Part shown: piece by piece, positions 20,565-57,191 of the stretch | Position numbering within the stretch: the stretch's first letter is position 1 | Layout: every line of letters begins with the position of its first letter | From: Caballeronia novacaledonica | GTDB taxonomy: Bacteria; Pseudomonadota; Gammaproteobacteria; Burkholderiales; Burkholderiaceae | Assembly (NCBI RefSeq): GCF_900258035.1 | Contig: NZ_OGTP01000005.1 | Span: 124,001-188,000 of the forward strand | Reading direction: 5' to 3' | Length of the DNA stretch: 64,000 bases | Notes under the pieces: generated by a model | The model's input: the letters and a program-made list of their open reading frames with translations, nothing else | Database searches by the model: none | Told to the model about the DNA's origin: nothing | Made by a program: the position numbers and the translations under genes

Positions 20565-20624
20565 GTTCCGTTCAGTGAAACCAATTTCAAAAACATTGAC
20601 GATGACGGCCTTAGTGTTTACATT
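20565..20624 (+). promoter_or_regulatory. Operator-promoter, site 1 (distal type)
   Basis: Operator GTTCCGTTCAGTGAAAC (20565-20581), third half-site ATTTC 2 nt later, -35 TTGACG (20596-20601), 17-nt spacer, -10 TACATT (20619-20624). It drives the Bug-protein gene at 20702. Belongs to the ten-member GTTYC-N7-GRAAY set. Confidence 0.75.
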
Positions 20625-20701
20625 CATGATCGACGGACCGTAGCGGTGCAGGTACGATGGTCCTCGACTGTGGTGAACAGATAAGACGTGTGAGGTTGGG
20701 G

Positions 20702-21694
20702 ATGCTTGGAAGGAAGATTGTCCAGATTATTGTCTTGCTGTCGTTGAGTCTAGCCGGGCTCAACAGCGTGAGGGCGAAGGATTTTCCAGCTCAAACCATC
20801 AGATTGCTGGTCGGCTTTGCTGCTGGCGGCGGCACCGACACGATTGCGAGGCTCTATGCTCGCGGCCTGCAAGAAGAGTTGCATGCGACGGTTATTGTCG
20901 AGAACAGACCCGGCGCGTCGTCTCTCGTTGCCATCAGAATGCTGATGGCGTCACCGCCCGACGGATACACGCTAATGCTCGCAAGCGGAAGCGCGCTGGC
21001 TCAAGGGCCGGGAGTCAGGAAAGACCTGCCTTATGACCCTCTAAACGATTTTAGTCTCATTTCGATGGTTGCAACGGCGCCAGGCGTCTTCGTGGTCAGC
21101 CCTAAGACAGATATTCATTCCATCGACGATCTCATTGGCTACGCCAAAGCACACCCAGGGCAATTGAATTTTGGCTCTGCAGGCGTTGGTGCAGCCAGCC
21201 ATCTTCAAGTCGAGTACCTGAAAAGCGTCGCTGGAATATCGATGACCCATATTCCGTACAGGTCTGATCAAGAGCTGACTCAAGAAATCGGGATGGGCGA
21301 TATACAGGTAGGCCTGAGCGTGCCGCAGTTTGTCATTCCTCTTTTGAAGGCTGGGAAATTGAGGGCTATTGCAGTCACGGGTAACCACAGGCTGAGCGCA
21401 TTGCCTGAAGTCCCGAGTCTCGCGGAATCCCACAACGCCTCGTTGCACGGCATCGAAAACTATACGTTCTACGGAGTCATCGGACCGAAAGGCGTTCCTT
21501 CCTCCGTGATTGAGCGTATCAGTGCGGCTGTGAATAAGGTATCGAGTTCTCCGGAAGTAGCCAGCCGGATGCGTAATTCGCTCTATTGCGAGCCAGTTTC
21601 GGGTGAAACCGCGTACTTTTCCGACTACATGTCAAAAGAGGTCCCGAAATGGCGGAGGCTGGGCCAGTCCGTCACTGTCGGTGACGGAGGGTAG
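20702..21694 (+). CDS. Bug-family periplasmic solute-binding protein
   Basis: A tripartite-tricarboxylate-transporter (TctC/Bug) type receptor of 330 residues. It starts with a Sec signal peptide (basic start, IIVLLSLSLAGL core, cleavage near VRA-KD). The mature part opens with FPAQTIRLLVGFAAGGGTD, the family's ligand-binding loop, followed by VIVENRPGASS and GYTLMLASGSAL. Such proteins bind organic acids in the periplasm. The ATG at 20702 behind GAGG gives a proper signal peptide; the longer frame from 20657 does not. It is followed by an IclR regulator gene. No TctA/TctB genes are adjacent; those at 39-41 kb may serve it. Confidence 0.9.
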   Translation: MLGRKIVQIIVLLSLSLAGLNSVRAKDFPAQTIRLLVGFAAGGGTDTIARLYARGLQEELHATVIVENRPGASSLVAIRMLMASPPDGYTLMLASGSALAQGPGVRKDLPYDPLNDFSLISMVATAPGVFVVSPKTDIHSIDDLIGYAKAHPGQLNFGSAGVGAASHLQVEYLKSVAGISMTHIPYRSDQELTQEIGMGDIQVGLSVPQFVIPLLKAGKLRAIAVTGNHRLSALPEVPSLAESHNASLHGIENYTFYGVIGPKGVPSSVIERISAAVNKVSSSPEVASRMRNSLYCEPVSGETAYFSDYMSKEVPKWRRLGQSVTVGDGG

Positions 21695-21841
21695 GATCTG
21701 CGAAGTGAGAGGGCGCATTCCCGACATCTTGAGCGCGAGGGCGCTCAACCCAAGCAGGGAGATTTACGGGGTGTCTTGTGGGGACACGAAACTTTCGGTC
21801 GTCGCTAAACGATAGGTGCAGCGGTCTTCAGCCGCGTGACT

Positions 21842-22621
21842 ATGACAAACATTGCAAGCGAGCCATCTACAGCGAACCGAAACATGATGCGGTCTGTTCA
21901 GCGCATTCTTGCTGTGTTCGAAAGCTTCAGTTCGGATCGAACCAGTCTGACCTTACAAGAGGTCGCGGAGCGCATCGAACTGCCGAAGTCTACCGCCTTT
22001 CGGATAGTGCAAAGTCTTGAGAAGGCAGGATACCTGGTCCGTCTCGAAGATCAACAGTATTGCCTCTCCTTTAGGTTCACTCGCCTGGCGGGCATGGTCA
22101 GGAGCACCTTGGACGTTCGAGCAATCGCTCGACCAATACTGGTTGAACTAGCTCAACAGACGAAGGAAACGGTTTCATTGCATACCTTGTCGGGACGAAG
22201 CCGTGTTTGCATTGATGCCTTATCCACTGTGTCTGCGCCGTTGCGAGCGGTTACCCAACCGGGAGAGGAAACGCCATTGCTCGGCGGTTCGGGTTCGAAG
22301 GTACTTTTAGCTCACATGCCGCCGCTCGAGTTGACGTCGATCTTGCCGTCGGTGGCCCGCGTTTTGAACGTAACAGATGAGGCGCTCATCGCAGAACTTG
22401 AGCTGATACGCGCACATGGTTATGCAGTTTCTCACGGCGAACGGCTACTCGGCATTTCGGCGGCATCGGCGCCAATTCGGGATGCAAATCAGGAAGTTCG
22501 TTACTGCTTGTCCGTTGCTGCGCCCACCGTAAGATTACGGGTCAACGAAGACGAGGCCATACGGCTGGTGGTGAGTGCGGCCGAAAAGATCTCGCGTCGG
22601 TTTGGCGCGCTCTACCAGTAA
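21842..22621 (+). CDS. IclR-family transcriptional regulator 1
   Basis: About 259 residues. N-terminal winged helix (about residues 15-75) with MMRSVQRILAVFESFSS and recognition helix LPKSTAFRIVQSLEKAGYL, then an IclR effector-binding domain (ETVSLHTLSGRSRVCID, GSGSKVLLAHMP, SHGERLLGISAASAPI, YCLSVAAPT). A GTG at 21836 is an alternative start. Its DNA-binding half is nearly the same as that of regulator 2 at 41.5 kb, so both probably bind the same operator while sensing related ligands. No GTTYC-N7-GRAAY site lies directly in front of it; it may be co-transcribed with the Bug gene (147 nt gap). Confidence 0.9.
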   Translation: MTNIASEPSTANRNMMRSVQRILAVFESFSSDRTSLTLQEVAERIELPKSTAFRIVQSLEKAGYLVRLEDQQYCLSFRFTRLAGMVRSTLDVRAIARPILVELAQQTKETVSLHTLSGRSRVCIDALSTVSAPLRAVTQPGEETPLLGGSGSKVLLAHMPPLELTSILPSVARVLNVTDEALIAELELIRAHGYAVSHGERLLGISAASAPIRDANQEVRYCLSVAAPTVRLRVNEDEAIRLVVSAAEKISRRFGALYQ

Positions 22622-22747
22622 TCAAACTGTCGTTACCGATCTGTTGAAGGTTTGGCGTTTCCGTCGGAGGTTGCGACCGCATTTCGGCGTTGCCGTTGAA
22701 ATGAGGTGGAGAAAATCCACGAGCGCAGCGTTTCGCAAGCTATCGCG

Positions 22748-22787
22748 AATCCAAGAATCCAAGAATCCAAGAATCCAAGAATCCAAG
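22748..22787. repeat. Five tandem copies of AATCCAAG
   Basis: Five uninterrupted 8-bp units. There is no ORF across it, so it is a candidate slippage tract in a spacer. It is too short and without spacers to be a CRISPR array. Confidence 0.95.
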
Positions 22788-22997
22788 CCGCCATCCCACA
22801 CTCCCTTTCCGGCTCTTCGTGGGCGGTGCAATCCGGCGTCGTTCCGTAGCTTGTCCTCCTGCTCGTCACTGTCGGTTCGTGCGCCTCCAGCCATAGCCCG
22901 TGATGCGAGTTCCCACCGCGTCTCAGCGACTCGTAAATCCGTGTCGTGTTGTCAATCGTCGCGCCAGTCTCTCGAATCGTGACATCTCGGTGCGGAA

Positions 22998-23045
22998 GTT
23001 CCGATCAGTGGAATTAATGCTGATCATCGGAACGCGTGTTACGAT
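22998..23045 (+). promoter_or_regulatory. Operator-promoter, site 2 (proximal type)
   Basis: Operator GTTCCGATCAGTGGAAT (22998-23014); 2 nt later the -35 ATGCTG (23017-23022), 17-nt spacer, -10 TACGAT (23040-23045). Outer arms GTTCCGAT (22998-23005) and ATCGGAAC (23026-23033) form a larger palindrome. Drives the gene at 23203. Confidence 0.7.
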
Positions 23046-23202
23046 GGGCTGAAGTTTTCTTCTGCGCGGCGAAGGACGGTTCGGAGGTGGGAAGGTCGAC
23101 TCCCGGGGAGGCATCTGCGGTTCAACGTGCCTTCCTCGGGAAAGGATTTCACAGGATTAGCTGACCCACCGTCAGCGATTTTGATATTAAGAGAGACACC
23201 TG

Positions 23203-25317
23203 ATGAGCGATACACAGAATGTCAGTTATCACGTCGAGGGCGGCGTGGCAGTGATTACCGTCGACAATCCGCCGGTCAATGCGCTGGCACCCGGTATGCG
23301 GGAGGGCATCATTGATGGCCTGGAGCGCGCCGGCGCTGACCCTGCAGTGAAGGCGGTTGTGCTCATCGGGTCAGGCAAGAACTTCATCGCCGGAGCCGAT
23401 ATCCGACAGTTTGGGAAGACGCGCCAAATCAGTACCAGCGTCAGCACTGCTGCCCTGGACGCATGTGAGAAGCCCGTGGTAGCCGCGATGCAAGGCTACG
23501 TTCTTGGCGCGGGACTCGAGCATGCCCTCGCATGTCATTATCGAATCGCCGCGCCTGACGCCAAGCTGGGACTGCCTGAGGTAAGCATCGGGATAATTCC
23601 AGCTGGGGGTGGGACCCAACGGCTGACGAGGTTGATCGGACCGAAGGTGGCTGTTGACATGATCAGCAGTGGTCGTCATGTTTCCGCGTTCGAGGCGTTG
23701 AATTCCGGAATCGTTACGCAGATTGTGAGTCAGGAAAATCTTCTGGCTAGCGCAATTTCTTACGCGAAAGACGTCGCGCCCGTGCGCCCATTGCCACGGG
23801 TTCGGGACATGACTGATCAAATTACCTATGCGGGTCAGCACCCTGAAGCCTGGGAAGCGGCGAAGAAGGCCGCTCTTAGCAAGGCTCGTAACGTGAAGGC
23901 ACCGCACTGCGCTGTCGCTTGCGTGGAAGCGGCACTAACCGGTAGCTTCGAGGACGGACTGGCCCTTGAGCAGCGACTGTTTTCGGAGCTCGAGGGCTCG
24001 GATGAAGCGAGGGCATTGCGATATGCTTTCTTTGCCGAGCGTGAGGCGAAAAAGATTCCGGGCGCGCCCGCGTCCTATAAGCCTGAAGGCGTGCGATCCG
24101 CTGCAATCGTGGGCGCTGGAACAATGGGGGCTGGAATCGCAATCTGTTTTGCGGACGTTCGCGTTCCGGTGATAGTGCTCGAAGTCACGCAAGAGGCACT
24201 CGATCGAGGCATGAAGCGGATTCACGACACGTATGCGGTAAGAGTGCGGCGCGGAAGCCTCACACAAGAAGAAATGAACGAGCGACTGACGTACGTACAA
24301 CCTGTCTTGCGATATGAGGACATCGGGGACGCCGATGTTGTCGTGGAAGCAGTGTTCGAGCGTATCGATCTGAAAGAAGATGTCTTCACGAAGCTGGACG
24401 CGGTGATGAAGGAAGGGGCGCTCCTGCTTACCAACTCTTCGGCGATCGACATCAACACGATGGCGGCCGTTACACGACGTCCGCATGATGTCGCGGGGGC
24501 ACACTTCTTTGCGCCTGCGAATGTCATGAAACTCTGCGAAGTCGTCAGGGGCGACCGGTCGTCAATAGAAACGATACTCCGAGCGACGAAATTGGGGCGT
24601 GACCTCGGCAAAGTAAGCGTCGTTGCAGGTTCTTGCGATGGTTTTGCGGCAAATCGTAGCCGCGCGCCGCTGGTGACGGAGATGATGCTGATGCTGGAAG
24701 AAGGCGCGCTGCCCCAGCAGGTGGATAAGGTCATGGTTGGATTTGGCTATCCAATGGGACCTTTTGCGGTCAGCGATTTGTCGGGTCTCGACGTTAGTTA
24801 CGATACGCGCAAGCGCCGCGCCGCTGCAGACCCGACCTATCGAAAGCTCCACGTCCCCGATCGCATGGTTGAGATGGGTAGAAAGGGGCAGAAAAATGGT
24901 GCGGGTTGGTATCGTTACAGCGAAGGTGATCGCACGCCGCATCCGGACGAAGAGGTTTCGAAGATTATCCGTGACGTTGGTCGTGAGCTTGGCGTCCCGC
25001 AACGTGAGTTTTCAGACGACGAGATCCTGAACCGCTTGCTCTTCGCTTCGGTGAACGAGGCCTGCAAGATACTGGAAGATGGTAAAGCCTACCGCGCAAG
25101 TGATATCGACGTGATGTGGCTGTATGGTTTTGGCTTCCCGCGCCATCGAGGCGGACTGATGTACTGGGCAGACTCGATTGGTGCACAAAAGATCTTTGAG
25201 CAGGTCAGTGCGTGGCACGAGCAGTACGGAAAGCGCTGGAAGCCAAGTCAGTTGTTGGCGCAGATCGCCGAAGTTGGTGGATCGCTTCGAGAAGCCCAAG
25301 CGCCTAATCTTTCTTAA
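23203..25317 (+). CDS. FadB/FadJ-like enoyl-CoA hydratase/3-hydroxyacyl-CoA dehydrogenase
   Basis: A 704-residue bifunctional beta-oxidation enzyme. The N-terminal crotonase domain (1-190) has the oxyanion-hole IAGADIRQFG, AMQGYVLGAGLE and both catalytic-Glu positions in LGLPEVSIGIIPAGGGTQRL. The NAD-binding domain starts near 300 with AAIVGAGTMGAGIA and carries NSSAIDINTM and the catalytic His in GAHFFAPANVMKLCEVV; a C-terminal 3HCDH domain (from about 475) follows. It would hydrate an enoyl-CoA and oxidise the 3-hydroxyacyl-CoA. It is controlled by operator site 2 and followed 129 nt later by a rubredoxin gene. The substrate chain is unknown. Confidence 0.92.
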   Translation: MSDTQNVSYHVEGGVAVITVDNPPVNALAPGMREGIIDGLERAGADPAVKAVVLIGSGKNFIAGADIRQFGKTRQISTSVSTAALDACEKPVVAAMQGYVLGAGLEHALACHYRIAAPDAKLGLPEVSIGIIPAGGGTQRLTRLIGPKVAVDMISSGRHVSAFEALNSGIVTQIVSQENLLASAISYAKDVAPVRPLPRVRDMTDQITYAGQHPEAWEAAKKAALSKARNVKAPHCAVACVEAALTGSFEDGLALEQRLFSELEGSDEARALRYAFFAEREAKKIPGAPASYKPEGVRSAAIVGAGTMGAGIAICFADVRVPVIVLEVTQEALDRGMKRIHDTYAVRVRRGSLTQEEMNERLTYVQPVLRYEDIGDADVVVEAVFERIDLKEDVFTKLDAVMKEGALLLTNSSAIDINTMAAVTRRPHDVAGAHFFAPANVMKLCEVVRGDRSSIETILRATKLGRDLGKVSVVAGSCDGFAANRSRAPLVTEMMLMLEEGALPQQVDKVMVGFGYPMGPFAVSDLSGLDVSYDTRKRRAAADPTYRKLHVPDRMVEMGRKGQKNGAGWYRYSEGDRTPHPDEEVSKIIRDVGRELGVPQREFSDDEILNRLLFASVNEACKILEDGKAYRASDIDVMWLYGFGFPRHRGGLMYWADSIGAQKIFEQVSAWHEQYGKRWKPSQLLAQIAEVGGSLREAQAPNLS

Positions 25318-25446
25318 GCATTCAGCGCCTGGTTCAATGATAAGTAGGAGCCATCGAAACGGATTTGGTTCTTGCAGTCGCGAACGCGCGGCAACGACCC
25401 AAAGTTAGTTCCAGGCGCTCGTCGAACCGAGTTGCGAGGCAATGAT

Positions 25447-28825: not shown

Positions 28826-29578
28826 TTAGCGTTCCTCCTGCGGGTATTGCAGGACCAGCGCTTCCAGACCTTTATCGCCCGCCCGGATGTCGAACTTCTC
28901 TTCGCTAGGTTCCACCACGACCATTGACCACAGCGGCAGTTCTTCGTCGTTGTGCAACAGAGTGCCGTTCCCAACGAGCACGTAATAGCCGCCCGCTGCT
29001 TTCGGATCGGGTCCGGGGACGCTCATACCTGCGCCGAGGCGAACGACCTGGGCATGCATGCCGTCACTCGAGTCCTCAAGCAATGTCTCCCAGACTGCCT
29101 CTTTTCTTGCTGCAAGCACAGGTTCGATAGAGAAACGAACAGGCTCTGACGTGAGATGGCGACGCTTGCTCGGTTCAAGGCGGTCCCTGTAGCCGGGTTT
29201 ATCAAGATACACGGGCTCCGAGTTGCCTGTGTACATGCGCATTGCAACGAACGAAAGCCCTTGAGGGCCGGCGACGATCGGGCCGTAAGCGGTGTGGTGA
29301 TCCTTGAATTGAACCGTCAGAGGCTCCAAAACCTGTTTGCGGGCGCCCAAGGTACCCGATCCCGCGATGAAGCATTGGAACATCGTCACCCCGTGGAAGT
29401 GGGAGACAACGGATTCGTGGGGATTGAGTTCCGACATCGTCGCCTGCGGCCCAGCGCCCGCGCTGTTCGAACTGCGAGGCCCAAAGAAGACGGTGCCCCA
29501 GTGCTCGTTACCCGTGCCGGGCGAAACCACGACGTTGCGATTTGCGAGAGCGTCTGTGCCGCTTCGTGTGTAAATCAT
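28826..29578 (-). CDS. Cupin-fold protein
   Basis: A 250-residue protein without signal peptide. The N-terminal half has a cupin-like pattern SVVSHFHGVTMFQCFIAGSG with His residues in HFH, and a second, weaker repeat ends with VLVGNGTLLHNDEELPLWSMV. Start set at 29578, where AAGGAG lies 8 nt upstream; the longer frame from 29662 has no such site. It is the first gene of the minus-strand unit under operator site 3, divergent from the acyl-CoA synthetase operon. Could be a metal-dependent dioxygenase or isomerase, or a small-molecule sensor; nothing in the sequence decides. Confidence 0.7.
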   Translation of the reverse strand: MIYTRSGTDALANRNVVVSPGTGNEHWGTVFFGPRSSNSAGAGPQATMSELNPHESVVSHFHGVTMFQCFIAGSGTLGARKQVLEPLTVQFKDHHTAYGPIVAGPQGLSFVAMRMYTGNSEPVYLDKPGYRDRLEPSKRRHLTSEPVRFSIEPVLAARKEAVWETLLEDSSDGMHAQVVRLGAGMSVPGPDPKAAGGYYVLVGNGTLLHNDEELPLWSMVVVEPSEEKFDIRAGDKGLEALVLQYPQEER

Positions 29579-29668
29579 CAGAAATCTCCTTGTGTCTAAC
29601 CACTGCCTGCAGGGTCGGTGTGTCGGATGGATCGCGGTCTCGTCGGCTGCTTTAGCGATCACAGGTGC

Positions 29669-29716
29669 ATCCTATCATGGGTTTTGATAAGTAGCATGGG
29701 TTCCGTTGATCGGAAC
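29669..29716 (-). promoter_or_regulatory. Operator-promoter, site 3 (proximal type)
   Basis: On the minus strand GTTCCGATCAACGGAAC (29716-29700), 2 nt, -35 ATGCTA (29697-29692), 17-nt spacer, -10 TAGGAT (29674-29669). Drives the cupin gene starting at 29578. Confidence 0.7.
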
Positions 29717-29788: not shown

Positions 29789-29849
29789 GTTTCATTGAGC
29801 GAAACCAATTCCATTTTTTGTTGACGTGGCAGTTTTCCAGGAATAGAGT
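29789..29849 (+). promoter_or_regulatory. Operator-promoter, site 4 (distal type)
   Basis: GTTTCATTGAGCGAAAC (29789-29805), third half-site ATTCC, -35 TTGACG (29821-29826), 17-nt spacer, -10 TAGAGT (29844-29849). Drives the operon starting at 29948. Confidence 0.75.
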
Positions 29850-34818: not shown

Positions 34819-35477
34819 TCGCTCCCGCATTACGCATCGCTCTCCATTTCGACTCATGCGATGACTCGCCGCGTGTCCGACGCTGGTTCATCTCGACGTC
34901 GGTACGCGTGGGGAGCTGGACCTGAGCGACTCACCTCGTCCGTTTCGCCGTCGCGCGAAACCGGCGCGCGTTCGAACACTCGACGCGGCTTTCATAATAC
35001 GAAACGGCCTTCCTATGGGCGCAGCTAGGCGTTCATGGTCGGAGAGAGGATCGCCGCCCTCTCGAAGCTGAACGCTCGCTAACCGGTCGCGTCCCGCTCT
35101 CGCGAGCGCTTGCCGACAGCGCATGCGGTCCCTCGTGCAATCTGCCGCCAACATTGTCGTAACCGCCAGCGAGGTCGCGTTAGTCCCACGACGCTTGCTG
35201 ACAACCGTAGCGCGGCAGACCTCCTAGGCTTATTCGACATCTCGGGCCCTGATTCGGCCTAGCCAAAACAAATCGACGAGCTTCATGTTCCAATGAATGA
35301 AACTTGTACCAATCAACGAAATTGGTTGTAGACTAAAGTCACGACAGGATAGACGTCGCGGCGGAGTCGGTGCCGGGAAAGGAACTCGACCGGATTCGTT
35401 GGATTGCAGATGTGGGACGAGGCGTCGGATGAAGTTTCCTCTAACGCCGACGGTGAGGAACAGGCGAGGAGTTGATG
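34819..35477. other. 660-bp region ending in promoter site 5
   Basis: The first 450 bp hold no convincing gene (minus frame 34888-35154 is arginine-rich and unsupported). Operator-promoter site 5 lies at 35287-35334. Confidence 0.5.
35287..35334 (+). promoter_or_regulatory. Operator-promoter, site 5 (proximal type)
   Basis: GTTCCAATGAATGAAAC (35287-35303), 2 nt, -35 GTACCA (35306-35311), 17-nt spacer, -10 TAGACT (35329-35334). Likely transcribes the small ORF at 35478 and tcuA-tcuB beyond it. Confidence 0.6.
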
Positions 35478-35717
35478 ATGAAAACGGACGGGCAGTCATT
35501 ACGCTGGTTGGTTCACAAATGGTTTGGCTCAGCGCCGGCAAGTGGGATCCGGGTCACTCGAACCATACCGGTGAAATCGAATCCGTTTCGAGGCGTTTGC
35601 GTCGAGACGACTCAGTCGGACCGAGACCTCGTCATTTTCTTCTTCCGTCACGACGACGGTTCGTGGAGCGTCCTTCCCCCATCTGCAAGGCGCCCGATGT
35701 TCAGTCTGTGTGTCTGA
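35478..35717 (+). CDS. Small basic protein, possible leader gene of tcu operon
   Basis: A 79-residue frame with a strong GAGGAG 6 nt before the ATG at 35478 (a second ATG at 35475). Text such as LRWLVHKWFGSAP, FRGVCVET and LVIFFFRHDDGSWSVLPP has natural protein composition and resembles small hypothetical proteins of Burkholderiaceae that I cannot name. It lies between promoter site 5 and tcuA, with 216 nt before tcuA. No membrane segment or known motif. Confidence 0.55.
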   Translation: MKTDGQSLRWLVHKWFGSAPASGIRVTRTIPVKSNPFRGVCVETTQSDRDLVIFFFRHDDGSWSVLPPSARRPMFSLCV

Positions 35718-40990: not shown

Positions 40991-41521
40991 TCTAAGCTTC
41001 GGAATTTCAATTAGAAGCGATGGCCGCCGTTCGTTCTCTGTAACGTAGAGTCAAGCGCGCGACCGCGAAAAAGTCCTCTCAGGGGTGGGGCGCCGACCGT
41101 GTCATGGGGGAGGCGCCCTCTTTTTTTTGAGCAACGTCTAAGTACTAGTAATGGGAGTTGCGATGCCAGCGGTATGGGGATCATCGACGAAGTAGATGTG
41201 GATCATTTACCTCTGTAATTCAGAGGGTGGGCGCGAGCCTCAATGTGGTACCAGCGCACTCTGACTCTTGTGAAGGCTTAGATCGTTGTCCCAACTCCGT
41301 GCGGTCTACCGTTCAGAAACGCCGCTCCAGTTGCCAGACGATTCTTCACCAATTAGTCCACTTCGTACGAGGTTAATAGTGGGCTTTTATGCGCCTCTCA
41401 TATGCAATGTGGGAGGAATTTTTTTGGAGAAAGCGTCGTTGGACGTGGCTCTGTATCGCGGAGCCACCTGTGCTGTTGTACCATACGGCATCACAGAAAC
41501 ATTCGAACGGAACTTCATCCT
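40991..41521. other. Spacer between tctA and IclR gene
   Basis: Holds the tctA terminator (41087-41128). The remaining ~390 bp before the IclR start contains no gene I trust and no copy of the operator motif. Confidence 0.5.
41088..41128 (+). terminator. Intrinsic terminator after tctA
   Basis: GGGCGCC (41088-41094) pairs with GGCGCCC (41112-41118) across a 17-nt loop, then a run of eight T (41121-41128). Confidence 0.75.
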
Positions 41522-42283
41522 ATGATGCGCTCGGTGGAACGGATTTTGGCGGTTTTCGAGAGTTTCAGCACTGAACGAAGCAGTCTATCGCTCCAGCAGA
41601 TCTCTGACCGCATTGAGCTGCCGAAGTCGACGACGTTTCGTATCGTCCAGAGCTTGGAGCAGGCAGGTTACCTCGTGCGATTGGAGGACCAGCAGTACTG
41701 TCTTTCGTTCCGGTTTACGCGCCTCGCAGGCCTTGTGAAAAGTACGCTCGGTATCCGCGAGATTGCGCGACCGTTCATGACTGATCTTGCAGAGAAGACG
41801 AAAGAGACGGTCTCGCTGCATACAGTGTCCGGACGTAACCGAATCTGTATCGAATCGATATCGACTGTTATGGCGCCATTGAGGGCGGTCGTTCAAGCAG
41901 GCGAGCAGATCCCGCTGCAGGCTGGCTCTGGGTCAAAGGTGCTGATGGCTTATATGCCGAAGGCTGAGCTCACTCCGTTACTTGCGAGCGTGGGTAAGGC
42001 GTCAAAGCAAACTAAAGCTGAGCTCCTTGCGGAGCTTGAGCGGGTTCGCGAAGCTGGGTTTGCTGTGTCGCATGGGGAACGACTGATGGGAATTTCGGCG
42101 ATCTCCGCCCCAATCACGGATGTCAATGAAGAGGTGCATTATTGCCTGTCCGTAGGCGCGCCTACGGTTCGAATGCAGATGCATGAGAAGGAGTTTGTGA
42201 AGCTGGTTGTGGACGCCGCGGCGAGCATCTCGCGGCAATTCGGGGGGCAGGCCGAACTGTCTGTGCCGATTGACGAGCCCTGA
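41522..42283 (+). CDS. IclR-family transcriptional regulator 2
   Basis: A 253-residue regulator starting MMRSVERILAVFESFS at 41522, the point where it aligns with regulator 1. The winged helix (recognition helix LPKSTTFRIVQSLEQAGYL) and the following VRLEDQQYCLSFRFTRLAG are almost identical to regulator 1. The effector domain is clearly related but more diverged (GSGSKVLMAYMP, SHGERLMGISAISAPI, YCLSVGAPTVR). The pair thus probably shares DNA targets, namely the ten GTTYC-N7-GRAAY sites, while responding to different or related inducers. It faces the convergent SDR gene with 23 nt between stops. Confidence 0.9.
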   Translation: MMRSVERILAVFESFSTERSSLSLQQISDRIELPKSTTFRIVQSLEQAGYLVRLEDQQYCLSFRFTRLAGLVKSTLGIREIARPFMTDLAEKTKETVSLHTVSGRNRICIESISTVMAPLRAVVQAGEQIPLQAGSGSKVLMAYMPKAELTPLLASVGKASKQTKAELLAELERVREAGFAVSHGERLMGISAISAPITDVNEEVHYCLSVGAPTVRMQMHEKEFVKLVVDAAASISRQFGGQAELSVPIDEP

Positions 42284-44244: not shown

Positions 44245-44539
44245 TGCGCCTCCTTTGATGTTCGGTCCGCTGAAACCTTCTGACCCGTTCGACGTCGAGT
44301 CTTTCCGAGAAATCCTCTTCTTTCAGTCGAAATTGTTCCACCATGAAAGATCATGCCCTCAGGGCTTCAAGAGGGCGCTCTCAAGCGAGATCGATTCTTT
44401 CAGTTCCGGTCAATGAAATGCGTGCTGATTATAGAAACCCATGATAGCATTTTCTTGCCGGTCCACGAGTCTATCTTGTGGATCGAGGAGGCTTGGGAAG
44501 CGCAACCGGCTGCATATACGAGACATAGCGAGGACAGAC
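44245..44539. other. Divergent control region, CapA and SDR genes
   Basis: No gene. Plus-strand promoter site 6 at 44403-44450 serves the SDR gene. A weak GGAAC-A-ATTTC word near 44330 on the minus strand might serve the CapA gene but does not fit the operator spacing. Confidence 0.5.
44403..44450 (+). promoter_or_regulatory. Operator-promoter, site 6 (proximal type)
   Basis: GTTCCGGTCAATGAAAT (44403-44419), 2 nt, -35 GTGCTG (44422-44427), 17-nt spacer, -10 TAGCAT (44445-44450). Drives the SDR gene at 44540. Confidence 0.7.
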
Positions 44540-45407: not shown

Positions 45408-45415
45408 ACAAAGCC

Positions 45416-47079: not shown

Positions 47080-47085
47080 CTCTTC

Positions 47086-48255: not shown

Positions 48256-48623
48256 ACGCTCAACTCCTCTTCAACAGGTGAAGTCGCGACTCCCAGCACG
48301 CGCCTAGGGCCTGGGGCCTGGTCATGAACCACTTGCACCTCCGTCAAGTTTCGATGGATGAAACCGGTGCTGTTCAGTAAAACCAATGATACCATTGGTG
48401 GTGTGGGGCAGGCTAACGCTAAATTGGGAGGAGACAGAGGGGTGGTGGTTGATGTGCTCGGGGCGGCCGGCTTTAGCACGGTTTCGGTGAAAGCCTTCTC
48501 GGGCTCGTTGTCTCGTGGGCGACGATCTGCCCGTGCAGCTTTTTAATCGACTCTGAGTCGCAGGGCGCGTTTTCGGCTGGCGACGTTTTATACCGGCTAG
48601 TGGTGCCGGTTGTTGAGGAAAAT
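48256..48623. other. Divergent control region, thiolase and rubredoxin 2
   Basis: No gene; contains operator site 7 (48348-48395), which by symmetry could serve both directions. Confidence 0.55.
48348..48395 (+). promoter_or_regulatory. Operator-promoter, site 7 (proximal type)
   Basis: GTTTCGATGGATGAAAC (48348-48364), 2 nt, -35 GTGCTG (48367-48372), 17-nt spacer, -10 TACCAT (48390-48395), towards rubredoxin 2. On the other strand the palindrome abuts a TTGACG, a possible -35 for the thiolase gene. Confidence 0.65.
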
Positions 48624-48848
48624 ATGAACGCGAAATTGAACGAACTTGACGATGTCTCGGCGGCTGCGCCGGTTCAGTCGGACTTTAAGGTGTGGCAGTG
48701 TGTCCTTTGCGGTTTCATTTACGACGAGGCCGAGGGTATTCCCGAGGACGGTATCCCTGCTGGCACGCGTTGGGAAGATGTGCCCGCCGACTGGCTGTGC
48801 CCGGAATGCTCGGTGGGAAAGAGTGATTTTGAAATGGTGGAGGTTTGA
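48624..48848 (+). CDS. Rubredoxin 2
   Basis: A 74-residue rubredoxin with CVLC and CPEC iron-ligand pairs, [15 protein letters not shown] and [17 protein letters not shown] lies about 6 nt before the ATG at 48624. It is closely related to rubredoxin 1 (25.4 kb): both end in DFEMVE-hydrophobic and share KVWQC. It is a monocistronic unit downstream of site 7 with a leader of about 220 nt. Electron partner unknown. Confidence 0.93.
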
Positions 48849-50154: not shown

Positions 50155-51480
50155 TCACTCTTGTCGCCGCATCTTGACTCCGGCCGTGTCCTCATACATG
50201 CGAGCGAGTTGCTCAACGCTGGAGGAGCCTCCAAGCTGATTTTTTGCCTGTTCGAAGATCGCGAGGACCACATTCGGTATCAGCGTGGGCGCGCCCACTC
50301 GGTTGGCCAGGGAGGAACATGCCTTGAGATGACCGAGGTAAGAATCTATGGCAGCCCCAGATTCTGACTTGCCAGACGCAAGCGCCGGAAGAAGCGTTCG
50401 CGAAGCGTCGCTCCAACCCGAGCCTTTATTCACAACCAGCGCTATGTCATCGAGCTTGAGCCCGTACTTCAGCCCGGCGGATACGCATTCGTAGGTCACA
50501 GTTCGCCCGAGACATTCAAGACTGTTGATCAGAACATCCTCAATTGCTGGCAGGGGGTCCGTCGAACCTGCAAGGTCAGGCTTTGTCGTCTCCTTAGCCG
50601 CGGCCAGCTTGGTCGCTGCCATAGACTCGACGAGACCAACCATGTCTTCCAAACGTGCGCGATCGCCAATGGTGTTCAAACCAATCTGCAGCAGTCCGCG
50701 GGTAATGTTCATGATGGGCATCGGCACTGAGCGAGTCATGCCAAGTGACACCGCCTGATTGACATCCTTCAGCATCAGGGAGAGGGCAAAGTTGGTCGAC
50801 TCCTTTCCTTCGACCAGAGCCGGAAGCATCTTCAATGTCGTTTGATTGCGAGCAGGTTCCCGGTTCAAAAATTCACTCAGGTATGCGAGCGAAAGGCCGG
50901 CCTTCACTCCCAGAGCGGCGATCTCCAAAGTGCCAAGGCGACAGGCCGCGTTCATCGCATTGTTGACCATCTTCATGGCTTGTCCGTCGCCAACGCGAGT
51001 GCCGCAGCGGAAGATTGTTTCAGTGATGGTTCGAAGCGCTGGAAGCGCCTTCTCAACTACATCGTCGGGGCCCGAAACCATGAGTGTTGCGCCACCGCTG
51101 GCAACAATGGATGGAGAAGCCGATACAGCGGCATCGATCATGCCAACGTCTTGACGAGCAAGAAGCTCTGCAATTTCTCGAGTCTCCTCGGGAACACCGC
51201 TGGTCTGATCGATAACAACTTTTCCGGCCGAAAGTCCTTCGCCTAAACCGCCAGGCCCGAAAATCAGTTCTCTTACATCGGAGCTTCGTGGAAGGCAAAG
51301 AAGGATCACGTCGCTCTCAGAGGCGAGCGCGGCCGCCGACGGAGCGACCTTCGCGCCCGCCTCAGCGAATGCCGTTGCAGCGTTCGCATTCAAATCCCAC
51401 ACGCAGAGCTCGTGCGCTGATAAAAATCGACGTGCCAGTTGACCGCCTAGCGCTCCCAGTCCGATGTAACCAATCTTCAT
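50155..51480 (-). CDS. 3-hydroxyisobutyrate dehydrogenase-like protein with duplicated C-terminal domain
   Basis: A 441-residue beta-hydroxyacid dehydrogenase; the family is normally about 290-300. N-terminal Rossmann domain (GYIGLGALGGQLARRF), VIDQTSG substrate loop, and catalytic Lys in GDGQAMKMVNNAMN, so the first 295 residues are a complete enzyme. The extra 140 residues (NSLECLGRTVTYECVSAGLK, VVNKGSGWSDASRTLLPAL, AIDSYLGHLKACSSLANRVG) repeat the helical NAD_binding_11 dimerisation domain once more. Ribosome site GGGAGG before the ATG. Controlled by operator site 8. One of three size-variant members in the window. Confidence 0.87.
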   Translation of the reverse strand: MKIGYIGLGALGGQLARRFLSAHELCVWDLNANAATAFAEAGAKVAPSAAALASESDVILLCLPRSSDVRELIFGPGGLGEGLSAGKVVIDQTSGVPEETREIAELLARQDVGMIDAAVSASPSIVASGGATLMVSGPDDVVEKALPALRTITETIFRCGTRVGDGQAMKMVNNAMNAACRLGTLEIAALGVKAGLSLAYLSEFLNREPARNQTTLKMLPALVEGKESTNFALSLMLKDVNQAVSLGMTRSVPMPIMNITRGLLQIGLNTIGDRARLEDMVGLVESMAATKLAAAKETTKPDLAGSTDPLPAIEDVLINSLECLGRTVTYECVSAGLKYGLKLDDIALVVNKGSGWSDASRTLLPALASGKSESGAAIDSYLGHLKACSSLANRVGAPTLIPNVVLAIFEQAKNQLGGSSSVEQLARMYEDTAGVKMRRQE

Positions 51481-51581
51481 CTTGCGTCGCCTCCCTAGTC
51501 GTTTGCCTATCTTTTCTACAGAACCCGCCTTCGTGGGCCGAGATCAAACGCCGGCTGAAGTGTTTCGGGTGTATGCGAAGC

Positions 51582-51629
51582 ATCGTAGCACGCATTCTAC
51601 TCATCAGTATCGATTCCATACAATGAAAC
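51582..51629 (-). promoter_or_regulatory. Operator-promoter, site 8 (proximal type)
   Basis: On the minus strand GTTTCATTGTATGGAAT (51629-51613), 2 nt, -35 ATACTG (51610-51605), 17-nt spacer, -10 TACGAT (51587-51582). Drives the 441-residue dehydrogenase and the Bug gene behind it. Confidence 0.7.
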
Positions 51630-51669
51630 CAAAAATGAAAGACGGCAGTCTGACGTCGTCGCGCTTACG

Positions 51670-51729
51670 GTTTCGTTGAATGGAACGGATTCCATTTATA
51701 TTGACGTAGAAGCGCCCCGGATATAAAGT
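51670..51729 (+). promoter_or_regulatory. Operator-promoter, site 9 (distal type)
   Basis: GTTTCGTTGAATGGAAC (51670-51686), third half-site ATTCC, -35 TTGACG (51701-51706), 17-nt spacer, -10 TAAAGT (51724-51729). Drives the MFS-dehydrogenase-amidohydrolase unit. Confidence 0.75.
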
Positions 51730-52025: not shown

Positions 52026-53393
52026 ATGGAGCAATCAGTACAGCCCCCTGTACAGGGTTGGAGCGGTGATCAGCCTGCTGAGGCATCGGCGACTGACAAG
52101 GAGGTGAAGGCAGCGTATCGGAAGGTCACCCTGAGACTTGTTCCGTTCTTATTTCTTTGTTGGGTAGTTAACTACATTGACCGGGTGAACCTCGGGTTCG
52201 CGAAGATTCCGCTGTCGAGAGATCTCGCGCTCTCGGACGCAGCCTACGGATTGGGGGTAGGGTTATTTTCGATCGGCTATGTCCTGTTTGAAGTTCCGAG
52301 CAACCTGATGTTGGAGCGAACCGGTGCGCGGCTCACCATGGCGCGAATTATGTTTCTGTGGGGCTGCATCACTTGCTTGATGATGTTCATACAGACGAGC
52401 ACGCAGTTCTACATCGCCCGAATTGCGCTTGGAGCTGCCGAAGCCGGCTTCTACCCTGGTCTATTGCTCTATCTCACCTATTGGTTTCCGTCCGCTCGTC
52501 GCGCACGCATCACGTCGCGCTTCTTGCTCGCAATTGCGGTATCAGGAATGATTGGAGGACCCTTGGCCGGTTGGATCCTCAACACGTTCGTCGACGTTGG
52601 CGGACTTCGTAACTGGCAATGGCTGTTCTTGCTTGAAGGGATACCCGCAGTCCTGCTCGGGGTCTTCGCTTACTTTTATCTCGATGATAAACCCGATCAG
52701 GCAAAATGGCTGACGGACGCGGAGCGCAAGATTATCTTGGATAACATCCAAGCGGATCGCGCATTCAAAGGCAAGCCTGCTCATTCTGGACTGGTCGCGG
52801 TTCTTCGCGACCCACGCGTCTATGTGGTCGTGCTCGCATCGTTGGTTACGCCAATGCTGGGCATCGTTATGAATTACTGGACGCCCACTATCATTCATCG
52901 AGCAGGTGTCACCAACATCCTGCACCTATCTCTACTTTCTGCGATCCCGTCCGTTATCGGTGCGATTGGGATGATTGTCATTGCCCGACACTCCGACCAC
53001 CGCGTCGAGCGCCGCTGGCATTACCTGTTCTCGATATCTATTGGGGCAGTGGGGCTCGTCCTGCTTCCGAGTGTGGTCCACAGCCCGGTCTTGACAATCG
53101 GCTGCCTTTCGCTGCTGGCAATCGCATATTACGCGGGTAGCACAATGTTCTGGACGATTCCCCCGGCGTATTTCCCGGCAGCATCTGTTGCGGCTGGCAT
53201 CGCGTTGATGAGCAGCTTGGGACAGGCAGGTTCACTGCTGACACCGACCTGGCTGGGCTGGCTGATGACCAATACTCATAGCATCGCCATCGGGCTATAC
53301 ACCATTGCAGCAATCGCACTTGCCGGTGGCTTCATCATTGTGTTGGGGGTTCCGGCTTCCAAGCTGAGGGAACGGCGTGATGAGTCCGTGTAG
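52026..53393 (+). CDS. MFS transporter, anion:cation symporter (ACS) family
   Basis: A ~455-residue permease with 12 membrane segments. ACS hallmarks are VPFLFLCWVVNYIDRVNLGFAK in helix 1, GVGLFSIGYVLFEVPSNL, and GAAEAGFYPGLLLYLTYWFP near residue 140. These importers take up organic anions such as tartrate, phthalate and hydroxy-acids. ATG at 52026 has GGAG 6 nt upstream; an ATG at 52014 would add four residues. First gene of the unit under site 9. Confidence 0.9.
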   Translation: MEQSVQPPVQGWSGDQPAEASATDKEVKAAYRKVTLRLVPFLFLCWVVNYIDRVNLGFAKIPLSRDLALSDAAYGLGVGLFSIGYVLFEVPSNLMLERTGARLTMARIMFLWGCITCLMMFIQTSTQFYIARIALGAAEAGFYPGLLLYLTYWFPSARRARITSRFLLAIAVSGMIGGPLAGWILNTFVDVGGLRNWQWLFLLEGIPAVLLGVFAYFYLDDKPDQAKWLTDAERKIILDNIQADRAFKGKPAHSGLVAVLRDPRVYVVVLASLVTPMLGIVMNYWTPTIIHRAGVTNILHLSLLSAIPSVIGAIGMIVIARHSDHRVERRWHYLFSISIGAVGLVLLPSVVHSPVLTIGCLSLLAIAYYAGSTMFWTIPPAYFPAASVAAGIALMSSLGQAGSLLTPTWLGWLMTNTHSIAIGLYTIAAIALAGGFIIVLGVPASKLRERRDESV

Positions 53394-53450
53394 CAGAAAG
53401 GCTTGGCGCTGTCCAAGAGATAATTGAATCTTGTCCTCTCGAGTTTAACA

Positions 53451-55304
53451 ATGACTGAACCAACCGCTCCTGCAAACCACGTTATCTCTGAGCCGATCGG
53501 ATTTATCGGCCTTGGGGCGATGGGCGCCCCAATGGTGCGTCATCTTGCGACGCTCGGGTACTCGTTGCTCGTGTACGACACCAACGCATCGGCCGTCGCT
53601 TCGGCTGTCGAGCGAGGTGCGCAATCGATGACGTCAGCCAAAGCGATTGCTGATCGCGCCGCAATCGTGTTGACTTGCTTGCCATCACTGCCGGCCATCA
53701 AGGAAGTCGTTTTTGGAGAAGAAGGTGTTTCGAAAGGCGGCGCCGCACGTATCCTGGTTGATTTCTCGACGACCGGGGCACGATTCGCTCAAGACCTCGC
53801 AGCGGATCTCAAGTCCTTCGAAATCGACCTGCTTGACTCTCCTATTACAGGCAACGTGACAACGGCGGGGAATGGCAAACTCGGAATCATGTGTTCTGGG
53901 CCCGAGCGCGCGTTCGAACGTGTTGCTCCCATCATGCGAGACCTGGCAAGCCTGGAGGTGCTGTATCTAGGTGAGGAGACCGGAAAGGCTCAGACGCTCA
54001 AACTTCTCAATAACTCGCTGTCGGCCACCGGCATGGCGTCCGCCTGCGAAGCGTTCATTCTGGGCGTCAAGGGCGGACTAAACCCTCAACGGATGCTTGA
54101 AATCATAAATTCAGGCGACGCAAGCAGCAGCGCGACCCGAAATAAGTTCGGACGGTCGGTGCTGCCGCGCAAGTTCGATTTCGGAGCTCGCATGGCCATT
54201 ACGGCCAAGGACATCTCACTGACGGTCGAAGAGGCCCAAAATCGCGGGGTTCCGATGTGGGTTGCACAAACCGTGCAGCAAGTCTGGAAGTATGCAGCAA
54301 TGCAGGGGGGAGCGGACCGCGACGGAACTTCGCTTATTACCTATCTTGAGCCGTGGTCTGGGGTCGAGGTGGCGAGCCGCGGAGAGGCCATCTCTTGCGA
54401 GCGGGCGGTTTCGGTGGGCGCAACCTTCGTTCCCCACATTCTTATATGTGACGAATCCGAGGCTGAGCCTATTTCTCTCCGATTGCGTGAGCAGGGATTT
54501 AAAGTCGAGATACCGCACGGTGAGGCAGGGGCGGCGCAACCTACGACCGTGCCAGCTCGATCTTTCGGGACGTGCGTCTTGATCGGCGTGAAGGAAAGTG
54601 ACGAACAGTCCCTTCTTGTGAAGCGCATTCGCCAAGCAGCCGGCGAAGGCGGGGTTGTCATCAACACTCGAACGATGTCCATAGCCGAATCCACTCGTTT
54701 TCACCAGCAGACACGAGAGCTCGGCCTCAAATGCGTTGATGGCTTGCACACTGGACCGTCCCACGAACGTCGATCGGGCCAAGGGGTAATCATCGTCGGC
54801 GGCGCGGCCGCTGCCATCGACGCAGTAGTGCCACTACTGGCCGCGTTGAGTCGTCGAGTGTTTGTGATCTCGGAGCGGCCAGGGGACGCCCAGTTGATGC
54901 ACATGATTCACGCGTCGTTGTTTGCGACACTTCTTGTCGTTACGTCCGAGGCATTCGTCGCAGGGGCCAAGGCTGGACTGACTCCGTTGCAGATGAGAAC
55001 GATTATGGGCATCGAGACCGGAAGAAACGCCGCGAGCGCTCGGATCCTCCCAGAGCAGGTAGCGACTCGCCGCTTTGACTATGGGTTGACCCTCGCACAG
55101 GCTAGGCGCCACCTGACTATGGCAACGGATGCGGCGCGTCAACTGGGTGTTACAACGTGGATTTTCGACAAGGTCTTGGGAGTCTATGGCCTCGTGTGCA
55201 GTGGCGGACATTCGCCTGAAGACGTGAGTTCTATCGCAAAGCAGTACGAGTCCTGGGCGCAAGTCAAGGTCGAAAACGTCGATCGCGCACAGCAGGCCGC
55301 GTAG
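53451..55304 (+). CDS. Tandem beta-hydroxyacid dehydrogenase, intact plus degenerate half
   Basis: About 617 residues with two family units. Unit 1 (about 1-300) is intact: IGFIGLGAMGAPMVRHLA, VDFSTTGARF, LLDSPITGNVTTAGNGKLG and catalytic Lys in AQTLKLLNNSLSATG. Unit 2 (about 310-600) keeps the outline but has lost key parts. It has no glycine-rich nucleotide motif at its start (ATFVPHILICDES), GLHTGPSHE in place of the substrate loop, and LMHMIHASLFA where K-x-x-NN should be. So one active and one pseudo-enzyme half are fused. It is mirrored by the 609-residue protein at 59.7 kb. An upstream TTG at 53424 is less likely as start. Confidence 0.87.
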   Translation: MTEPTAPANHVISEPIGFIGLGAMGAPMVRHLATLGYSLLVYDTNASAVASAVERGAQSMTSAKAIADRAAIVLTCLPSLPAIKEVVFGEEGVSKGGAARILVDFSTTGARFAQDLAADLKSFEIDLLDSPITGNVTTAGNGKLGIMCSGPERAFERVAPIMRDLASLEVLYLGEETGKAQTLKLLNNSLSATGMASACEAFILGVKGGLNPQRMLEIINSGDASSSATRNKFGRSVLPRKFDFGARMAITAKDISLTVEEAQNRGVPMWVAQTVQQVWKYAAMQGGADRDGTSLITYLEPWSGVEVASRGEAISCERAVSVGATFVPHILICDESEAEPISLRLREQGFKVEIPHGEAGAAQPTTVPARSFGTCVLIGVKESDEQSLLVKRIRQAAGEGGVVINTRTMSIAESTRFHQQTRELGLKCVDGLHTGPSHERRSGQGVIIVGGAAAAIDAVVPLLAALSRRVFVISERPGDAQLMHMIHASLFATLLVVTSEAFVAGAKAGLTPLQMRTIMGIETGRNAASARILPEQVATRRFDYGLTLAQARRHLTMATDAARQLGVTTWIFDKVLGVYGLVCSGGHSPEDVSSIAKQYESWAQVKVENVDRAQQAA

Positions 55305-55422
55305 AAACGTTTTTGTCAGCGAGTATCTCTAGTCGTCGAAGTGCCGGGGGCGGCGAGGCGAAGCTTCTGCCGGCCCGACAGTCGACAGCCAGCATCAGCA
55401 TTGAACGAAGAGAGGTTCCGAA

Positions 55423-56493
55423 GTGACGACGCAGAACGAGACTGACACCAGCCCAGCGACAGTGGTGGATTTTCGGGGCAACAACGATCGAGATCTCAAA
55501 GCGCTGGATTCCTGGACAAAGCGACGCGTCGAAGAAGCCCTGGAGCCTGAGCTTCCTATCATCGACCCGCATCACCATATTTGGAATGACGAGCGCGGGC
55601 GCTATCTCGCGGACGAACTGCTAGCTGACATAGGAACGGGCCATCGGATCGAGGCGACCGTGTACATGCAGTTTAAAGCGAACTACCGTGAGACCGGTCC
55701 AGAGTCGATGCGCCCAGTTGGTGAAGTTGAGTTCGCTAGCATGTTTGCCGATGCATGCGCGACCGAGCGACCGGAAGGCCCCAAGTTGTGCGCCGGAATT
55801 GTCGGGCATGCAGATCTTCTGCTCGGCAGCGATGTGCAAGCTGTACTCGATACGATGCTTGAGGCGGGTCGCGGCCGCTTGCGCGGAATCCGGCACGGTG
55901 CAACGTTTGATTCGGGACAGGCCGGATTTGGGCGCGCGTTCGCCCGTCCTCACGTTCTTCTGGATTCCAACTTCCGAGAAGGATTCGCGAGGCTCGCGCC
56001 ACTGAACCTATCATTCGATGCGTGGATTTTCTATCCCCAATTACCAGATCTGATAAGCCTTCTTCGCGAGTTTCCGGATACGAATGTCATCCTTGACCAC
56101 GCGGGTGGCATCCTCGGCGTTCCGCCGCATGTGAATCGTCCCGAGGTGTTCTCGACTTGGCGCGCGTACATCCAGCAGCTTTCGCAGCATCCAAATTTGA
56201 CGGTCAAGATCGGTGGGCTCGGGATGCTCTACTGCGGCTGGAACTATCATCTGTATTCGGAACCCCCGACATCCGAAGCACTAGCCGCATCTTGGAGACC
56301 GTACATTGAGACCTGTATCGAATTCTTCGGCCCTGAACGTTGCATGTTCGAGAGCAACTTTCCGGTCGATAAGCAAACCTGCGGATACGGTGTGCTTTGG
56401 AATGCCTTCAAGCGCGTAACGCGACACTACTCCGAATCTGAGAAGCGCGCGCTTTATCGCGACAATGCCGCTCGGATCTATCGGCTTCAGTAG
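55423..56493 (+). CDS. Amidohydrolase family protein (LigI/PDC-lactonase-like)
   Basis: A 356-residue TIM-barrel metal-dependent hydrolase of the amidohydrolase_2 family. Metal-binding IIDPHHHIWND near residue 47, LRGIRHGATFD, FYPQLPDLISLLREFPDTNVILDHAGG near 210, VKIGGLGM, and the C-terminal Asp-like position in FESNFPVDKQTCGY. Relatives hydrolyse lactones of carboxylic acids or decarboxylate them. GTG start at 55423 behind GAGAGG. Follows the double dehydrogenase by 118 nt in the site 9 operon. Confidence 0.88.
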   Translation: MTTQNETDTSPATVVDFRGNNDRDLKALDSWTKRRVEEALEPELPIIDPHHHIWNDERGRYLADELLADIGTGHRIEATVYMQFKANYRETGPESMRPVGEVEFASMFADACATERPEGPKLCAGIVGHADLLLGSDVQAVLDTMLEAGRGRLRGIRHGATFDSGQAGFGRAFARPHVLLDSNFREGFARLAPLNLSFDAWIFYPQLPDLISLLREFPDTNVILDHAGGILGVPPHVNRPEVFSTWRAYIQQLSQHPNLTVKIGGLGMLYCGWNYHLYSEPPTSEALAASWRPYIETCIEFFGPERCMFESNFPVDKQTCGYGVLWNAFKRVTRHYSESEKRALYRDNAARIYRLQ

Positions 56494-57191
56494 GGGTTCA
56501 GAACCTCCGGTGAGGTGCAATACCTGTTAGTTGGAAGCTTCGGTTGCTATGTGGAACGTGTTACGCCGTGAGCTTCACCGCCGCGTAAATTTAATCGGTG
56601 CGCTCATCGGGGAGTCGTTTGAGGAAACCTACCAAAGATTTCCGCAAGCGACTTTTTTTCACCCGCAGCTCAGCGGCGAGCAGGCATTTCTAGCTGGATA
56701 TATCGTTCGCACCAACGTACTGGCCCGACGTTGGCCGCTCGGAGCTGTCGATAAGCGTTTTCGTTTTGAGCATCGAGCGCTGCGTGCGCCCAGGAATGTT
56801 GACCGACGCGGCAAGACTACGACTGCTGTGACATAGGAGGCGTGGCCGAACACAAGCAGTCGTTCAACCGCTCAAGTAGAAATGCGAGTCCCGTCCAGCC
56901 TCGCTCCTCGATCAGCGCTCGGCGGTTCGAGAGTGCGGCGCTCACCAAAAACATTGTAAAACGCGGTCATCTTCAGGGCCGGCGACAGCGTTTTCACACC
57001 ATATCTGAGCCTCGATAGCCTTTCCGTAATCTACGGTCTCACCGAATTCGTAAGTTTCACTCAATGAAACGCGTTCCTTTTTCGTTGACACTGCGGTACC
57101 TTCGACGTACAGTCGATTCTGACGCTGCCGAGATTGCACGGCACCGATACCCTCCAGCTAATTCGCAGAGATGTGGGAACGCTAACCATCA
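56494..57191. other. 700-bp spacer with promoter site 10
   Basis: A plus frame at 56531-56836 (101 residues: MWNVLRRELHRRVNLIGALI and onward) is the only candidate gene; it has no recognisable domain and a poor ribosome site, so I do not call it. Operator site 10 is at 57054-57113. Confidence 0.5.
57054..57113 (+). promoter_or_regulatory. Operator-promoter, site 10 (distal type)
   Basis: GTTTCACTCAATGAAAC (57054-57070), third half-site GTTCC, -35 TTGACA (57085-57090), 17-nt spacer, -10 TACAGT (57108-57113). The best promoter of the set; drives the MmgE/PrpD operon. Confidence 0.8.

Follow-up and report, generated by a model that had tools for sequence, protein, structure and literature searches.

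The IclR protein of Escherichia coli represses transcription from a promoter-overlapping site and belongs to the same family as the regulators considered here. In the main-text sections of the comparative survey by Suvorova and Gelfand (2021; PMC8222616), operators of IclR group 1, subgroup ii, are described by the consensus GTTYCRYW3RYGRAAC ('GTT-11-AAC'); tandem sites 18-22 nt apart are reported for 94 of 181 groups, and three-box sites for 32. Here, we report an analysis of a window of 64,000 nt from Caballeronia novacaledonica (contig NZ_OGTP01000005.1, positions 124,001 to 188,000), in which ten copies of the palindrome GTTYC-N7-GRAAY are distributed over a catabolic gene cluster. With a probability of roughly 0.8, as judged from sequence comparison, the ten copies serve as tandem operators in a single IclR-type regulon, arranged in two fixed registers relative to the promoter, the likeliest readers being two sister regulators encoded in the window, IclR1 and IclR2, each acting as a dimer of dimers.

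Read toward the promoter, each site is the first of two 17-bp palindromes that follow one another with a 19-bp period, giving half-site boxes at +0, +12, +19 and +31 (Table 1). The second palindrome stands in register at +19 throughout, with one of its boxes degenerate, and the choice of that box separates two classes. In class A (four window sites), boxes 1-3 are kept and a TTGAC -35 element at +31 or +32 replaces box 4; box 3 ends 7-8 bp upstream of this element. Among class A sites of the window and its relatives, a TANNNT -10 element lies 17 nt from the -35 element in 17 of 19 cases and 18 nt from it in the other two; at site 51670, an alternative 15-nt spacer outscores the 17-nt one. In class B (six window sites), boxes 1, 2 and 4 are kept and the -10 element comes next: over the window and relatives TANNNT is found at +42 and is preceded by TG at +39 in 37 of 39 sites, site 35287 being one of the two exceptions, such that the -10 element is of the extended type in five of the six window sites. 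Box 3 of class B mostly reads RTRYY, never carries T in its third place (0/39) and makes a poor -35 element. The registers are 12-13 bp apart, and each of the ten sites fits one of them in exactly one orientation. The most complete tandem in the window is that at 35287.

The preliminary description of this DNA had assigned to every site a -10/-35 pair with a 17-nt spacer, an account that suits class A but is only formally right for class B, whose poor -35 element is better replaced by an extended -10 in the description. The third repeat that it mentioned does exist as an additional box; this box, however, is half of the second palindrome, of which class A keeps the left box and class B the right one. 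Two B/A pairs diverge in the window, 29700/29789 and 51613/51670. Among divergent pairs (these two and those of L023, L026, L030, L031, L035, L066, L071, L074 and L077), the sites are separated by 46, 56-57, 67-68 or 89 bp, roughly in steps of a helical turn, with few independent cases; the pair of L035, at 60 bp, falls outside these steps.

Table 1. Predicted operators, candidate regulators and other features (window coordinates; minus-strand elements are listed in reading direction)
Feature	Coordinates	Strand	Elements	Predicted target or remark
Site 20565, class A	20565..20624	+	palindrome 20565-20581; box 3 20584-20588; -35 TTGACG 20596-20601; -10 TACATT 20619-20624	TctC/Bug receptor gene (20657), then IclR1
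Site 22998, class B	22998..23045	+	palindrome 22998-23014; second 23017-23033 (right box intact); extended -10 TGTTACGAT 23037-23045	FadB/FadJ-like gene 23203
Site 29700, class B	29669..29716	-	palindrome 29716-29700; second 29697-29681 (right box one mismatch); extended -10 TGATAGGAT 29677-29669	gene 28826-29662, without Pfam hit, cupin-like by eye only
Site 29789, class A	29789..29849	+	palindrome 29789-29805; box 3 29808-29812; -35 TTGACG 29821-29826; -10 TAGAGT 29844-29849	ADP-forming-type acyl-CoA ligase 29948
Site 35287, class B	35287..35334	+	palindrome 35287-35303; second 35306-35322 (one mismatch); -10 TAGACT 35329-35334 (no TGn extension)	conserved 81-aa open reading frame (35472), TcuA, TcuB
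Site 44403, class B	44403..44450	+	palindrome 44403-44419; second 44422-44438; extended -10 TGATAGCAT 44442-44450	SDR gene; true start must be downstream of predicted 44441
Site 48348, class B	48348..48395	+	palindrome 48348-48364; second 48367-48383 (right box one mismatch); extended -10 TGATACCAT 48387-48395	rubredoxin gene 48600-48848
Site 51613, class B	51582..51629	-	palindrome 51629-51613; second 51610-51594 (right box one mismatch); extended -10 TGCTACGAT 51590-51582	3-hydroxyisobutyrate-dehydrogenase-like gene 50155-51480
Site 51670, class A	51670..51729	+	palindrome 51670-51686; box 3 51689-51693; -35 TTGACG 51701-51706; -10 TAAAGT 51724-51729	MFS transporter gene 52014
Site 57054, class A	57054..57113	+	palindrome 57054-57070; box 3 57073-57077; -35 TTGACA 57085-57090; -10 TACAGT 57108-57113	MmgE/PrpD gene 57192
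IclR1, IclR-family regulator	21836..22621	+	HTH_IclR, IclR_C; recognition helix LPKSTAFRIVQSL	
IclR2, IclR-family regulator	41402..42283	+	HTH_IclR, IclR_C; recognition helix LPKSTTFRIVQSL	true start probably near 41519-41522
OrfB_IS605/TnpB gene with Cas12f1-like TNB domain	15137-16180	+		contains the 15310 match

The arms of these sites (GTTYCR, YGRAAC) and their length are those of the published GTT-11-AAC type, and the 19-bp period falls within the 18-22 nt given there for tandem sites. The centre differs: in place of the A/T of the group 1 consensus, the central base is C or G in 10/10 sites, although the two outer ones are A/T in 9-10/10, and the bases between the arms read RNTSANY in most of the ten. 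From arms and tandem spacing, the regulon would thus be of a known kind, the centre base excepted. The A/T-rich site of E. coli IclR given in the same survey, TGGAAATNATTTCCA, is unlike this motif. Closer to class A are the three-box sites that it describes for PcaU, PobR and HmgR, in which a palindrome is accompanied by an external direct repeat of a half-site. The likeness to PcaU and PobR drawn in the preliminary description is apt as far as the extra half-site beside the palindrome goes; but the third box belongs to a tandem palindrome, the gap between boxes 2 and 3 is 2 nt as opposed to 3-4 nt in the PcaU-type group 2 pairs, class B, unlike any of the three, keeps box 4 instead of box 3, and with 110.4 and 116.7 bits, the two regulators fall far short of the PcaR/PcaU/PobR model TIGR02431, whose cut-off is 284.75. 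For the binding mode, TtgV of Pseudomonas putida (PDB 2XRN, 2XRO), an IclR-family protein that occupies several half-sites as a tetramer, may serve as an analogy; it is distant by sequence (E 1.1e-12) and, according to the same survey, controls efflux, in contrast to the catabolic multi-operon set considered here. Two promoter registers with complementary box loss are not described in the sections consulted of that survey, the supplementary lists of which may include this group, and no paper treats this regulon by title or abstract among the literature matches listed.

A pattern scan of the window places all ten palindromes exactly where the preliminary description had located them. Of its 19 strand-matches, 17 belong to the ten sites and 2 to position 15310; dinucleotide shuffles of the window (n=100) give a mean of 1.24 and a maximum of 7. 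The ten sites are intergenic, as had been claimed, when judged by reading the lists of open reading frames (ORFs). Where a predicted ORF overlaps a site (35230-35541, for instance, or the SDR gene with its predicted start at 44441, within the promoter), it seems to be spurious or to have a misplaced start. The companion claim that no copy lies inside a gene or in the 0-20 kb island has to be withdrawn, since the match at 15310 is within the TnpB gene. We rejected this match as an operator: it lacks the core as well as any downstream box and is chance-like.

The genome sequence (G000; 6.78 Mb in 72 contigs, with the window at C17:124001-188000) was scanned with each pattern alongside a backwards control pattern. 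The loose pattern GTTYC-N7-GRAAY yields 129 strand-hits (63+66), compared to 19 (10+9) for the control, and, being common genome-wide, does not define the regulon alone. A tight pattern derived from the ten window sites, GTTYCRNTSANYGRAAY, matches eight of them exactly and the other two, 48348 and 51613, with one mismatch; in the genome it has 16 exact strand-hits (10+6), 14 of these in the cluster, against 1 (0+1) for the control. With up to one mismatch, it finds 62 (31+31; control 5, 3+2), of which 39, by hand count, lie outside both the cluster and an eleventh site. The latter, at contig position 191910 on the minus strand (window coordinate 67910, 3.9 kb past the window end; L062:5910), belongs to class A; the gene that it faces is MFS-like and the one after that amidohydrolase-like, both named by eye. 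As to the check proposed in the preliminary description, whether the motif is equally frequent elsewhere, the tight form is concentrated in the cluster and the loose form is common in the genome. Two exact hits to the tight pattern elsewhere, C30:175919 and C40:152892, were rejected as members, having neither a second palindrome nor a promoter register.

All ten window sites and the eleventh one fit a register, against a per-position background in the window of 0.0015 for the class A rule and 0.00016 for the class B rule. Among first-palindrome (P1) matches at 24 loci of the same genome outside the cluster, 1 of 15 can be classified, and this is the eleventh site itself, seen again in L041 (the others, 0/14); at 21 loci of genome G173, with the contig that carries its FadJ gene not included, the figure is 0/22. 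The exact class A pattern recovers the four class A sites of the window and one other position in the genome, C30:42569. The exact class B signature has four hits, all of them class B sites of the cluster, with 48348 matching at one mismatch and 35287 not at all; since allowing up to one mismatch gives 18 hits against 12 for the control, only the exact form is specific. The idea that we are dealing with a dispersed repeat or a chance accumulation rather than operators could draw on the abundance of the loose and the one-mismatch tight patterns in the genome; however, the sequences between the boxes vary among the sites, none of those in the cluster lacks a promoter register, and matching genes in other genera carry such sites too. 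We consider this explanation extremely improbable.

This recurrence was followed in the window and 29 further loci, with short loci (L001-L019, L037-L061) and overlapping ones (L024, L029, L032, L036) left out. The set holds 93 distinct P1 matches, 58 of which can be classified (19 class A, 39 class B). When the classified sites are grouped by the best match of the next gene, 56 of the 58 fall into eleven target groups, none of which mixes registers. Class A precedes genes for the CoA ligase (7 sites), MmgE/PrpD (4), the outer MFS protein (4), MFS_52014 (2) and Bug1 (2); class B precedes FadJ (11), the cupin-like gene (8), SDR (8), rubredoxin (5), the 3-hydroxyisobutyrate-dehydrogenase-like gene (3, one at 57%) and the 81-aa ORF/TcuA (2). 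The remaining two sites stand before weak paralogues at 30-38%. Many of the compared species are close kin, such that these counts are not independent. Comparison of the loci suggests that each gene tends to keep its own register in other genera.

The genes for IclR1 and IclR2 lie 19.7 kb apart in the window, and their products are 68% identical. Both proteins have PF09339 and PF01614 above cut-off and are thus members of the IclR family. At the contact positions of the recognition helix listed in PMC8222616, the residues P, K, S, T, F and R agree between the two in an alignment by eye, in line with the near-identity noted in the preliminary description; only the residue that separates T from F differs there, being A in one protein and T in the other. 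Searches with IclR1 recovered 17 loci in 10 genomes (two of Caballeronia, four of Paraburkholderia, one of Trinickia, two of Cupriavidus and one alcaligenacean). Two paralogue loci are present in seven of the ten; five of these seven have both on one contig, flanking the same genes at a distance of 14.7-14.8 kb.

A survey of the family, which appears to overlap with the ten-genome set (G132, G114, G219 and probably G203), found IclR1 matches at E <=1e-60 in 6 of 249 genomes. The cluster thus has a patchy distribution and is probably mobile among genomes. Strict-motif strand counts in these six are 16, 14, 5, 9, 1 and 5. A count of at least 5 is reached by 5/6 genomes with the IclR clade and by 2/243 without it (G025 and G088; Fisher p 1.6e-8), the counts being taken by eye and the cut-off of 5 chosen afterwards. 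In the order, IclR2 matches at E <=1e-55 occur in 7 of 399 genomes, with 11 loci beyond the two of the window; six of these 11 distant clade members, exactly those at 51-63% identity, carry P1 <=200 bp upstream of the regulator gene, compared to 1 of 14 other IclR loci of the C. novacaledonica genome. No other observation ties the motif to the regulator as closely as this association of gene and adjacent site. IclR1, IclR2 or both are very probably the readers of the switches. The earlier proposal of a single IclR regulon across the cluster is well supported by comparison: the arms are of IclR type, the sites recur at matching promoters, and genomes with the clade are mostly motif-rich.

Another IclR paralogue of the same genome could read the sites instead, either IclR3, about 1.2 kb from the eleventh site, or a paralogue on contig C59 (L042:2338, 30% identity) that has an RTTYC-N7-GRAAY site 103 bp upstream, a possible case of cross-talk; moreover, the motif type is common to 54 IclR groups in the survey PMC8222616. 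We regard this as very unlikely, given that the recognition-helix residues of IclR3 are SRST.YR as opposed to PKST.FR, that tblastn did not find IclR3 in the fetched regions of G114 and G219, which keep class A before the matching MFS gene, and that the clade beside the distant sites is IclR1/IclR2-like. A division of labour between IclR1 and IclR2, with one reading class A and the other class B, or with different inducers acting at the same sites, would fit the retention of two paralogues in 7/10 genomes and the existence of two site classes. Against it, the contact residues agree, and G178 has a single IclR match at E <=1e-60, yet sites of both classes (L077, L076), from which one protein can probably read both; this disfavours a split by class, while different inducers at shared sites may still apply; overall, we consider the division of labour unlikely.

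The predicted operator set appears to control most promoters of the catabolic cluster. Under the proposed mechanism, an operator would consist of the palindromes formed by boxes 1+2 and 3+4, repeated at 19 bp, and IclR1 or IclR2 would bind to it as a dimer of dimers, a presumed tetramer. By standard promoter spacing, we take the class B palindromes to be centred near -46 and -27, where they would exclude polymerase; since they extend over the -35 region and through the spacer as far as the -10 element, a bound regulator should block polymerase until the inducer arrives. The class A palindromes would, on the same assumption, be centred near -58 and -39, the second being only half present, beside the -35 element, and a regulator located just upstream of TTGAC could sit beside polymerase and help it. 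From these positions we favour, at modest odds, repression at class B and activation at class A; a common inducer may act on both. Tentatively, and at less than even odds, we extend this to a two-position code, in which the regulator would switch register A on and register B off, genes would keep their register wherever the patchy cluster occurs, and uptake or entry genes (mostly A) and downstream enzymes (B) would have opposite defaults. A plain repressor acting at both classes, for which the two registers would be two ways of blocking a promoter, is a possibility of similar standing: the class A -35 hexamers are good and the -10 hexamers fair, and box 3 ends within 7-8 bp of the -35 element. 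On the other side, by geometry only, class A leaves the -35 and -10 elements free and drops box 4, the box with the greatest polymerase overlap.

Several observations weigh against tandem operators of a single IclR1/IclR2 regulon in two fixed registers. The class rules were written after the window sites had been seen, so the fit in the window is not independent and tests elsewhere count more. Of the 93 P1 matches, 35 fit neither class; near misses among them include the rubredoxin promoters of L027, L033 and L034, with the -10 element one base closer. Sites before Bug1-like genes (43-47% identity) in Paraburkholderia and Trinickia also fit neither class, which makes a register change there possible. 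With respect to the regulators, no site is found immediately upstream of the IclR1 or IclR2 gene in the window, P1 is missing upstream of the regulator gene in five distant clade members (42-50% identity), and G178 has one strict motif hit only. In G173, a class B site (assigned by eye) precedes a 93%-identical FadJ gene (L105:3619, on the 4.4-kb contig C214), and no close IclR was found in this 440-contig draft (best match, 29%); a relic is a possible explanation for this gene with its class B promoter. Finally, the class A promoter, with its near-consensus -35 element, has no obvious need for an activator.

The Bug1-like sites in question are L031:9671, L026:8821, L030:8819, L075:3768 and L072:605; the TATAAT of L031, which seems to begin some 27 bp past P1, may represent a third layout. 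FadJ was also considered as a marker of regulator-free clusters and rejected: among the seven genomes with FadJ at >=64% identity (relatives near 45% were taken as other proteins and unused), six have a close IclR, and G173, the seventh, keeps one orphan site.

The cluster encodes TcuA and TcuB (both above the model cut-off), a TctA transporter protein, a TctC-type receptor, an acyl-CoA ligase, FadJ-like and thiolase proteins and rubredoxin, a gene content that points to degradation of a carboxylic acid via CoA esters. Class A precedes two transporters, the transport receptor, the CoA ligase and MmgE/PrpD, and class B the enzymes, rubredoxin, the 81-aa ORF with tcuAB, and a gene without family assignment. 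The 81-aa ORF (35472-35717, plus strand) has 42-94% identical matches just upstream of tcuA in relatives and no Pfam match; judging from these matches, it is probably a real small gene of the tcuA operon. In the 0-20 kb part of the window, adjacent TniQ, TniB/AAA and rve-integrase genes (the last just under cut-off) occupy 5371-10448 on the minus strand, which we take to be a Tn7/Tn5053-like transposition module.

The analysis defines a testable regulon of eleven operons with two candidate regulators and two promoter layouts. Such a regulon could show whether the position of the operator alone sets activation versus repression for IclR-family proteins. It also links an uncharacterised catabolic cluster of several Burkholderiales, comprising tripartite tricarboxylate uptake, TcuAB, an acyl-CoA ligase and beta-oxidation-like enzymes, and may thereby aid in finding its substrate.

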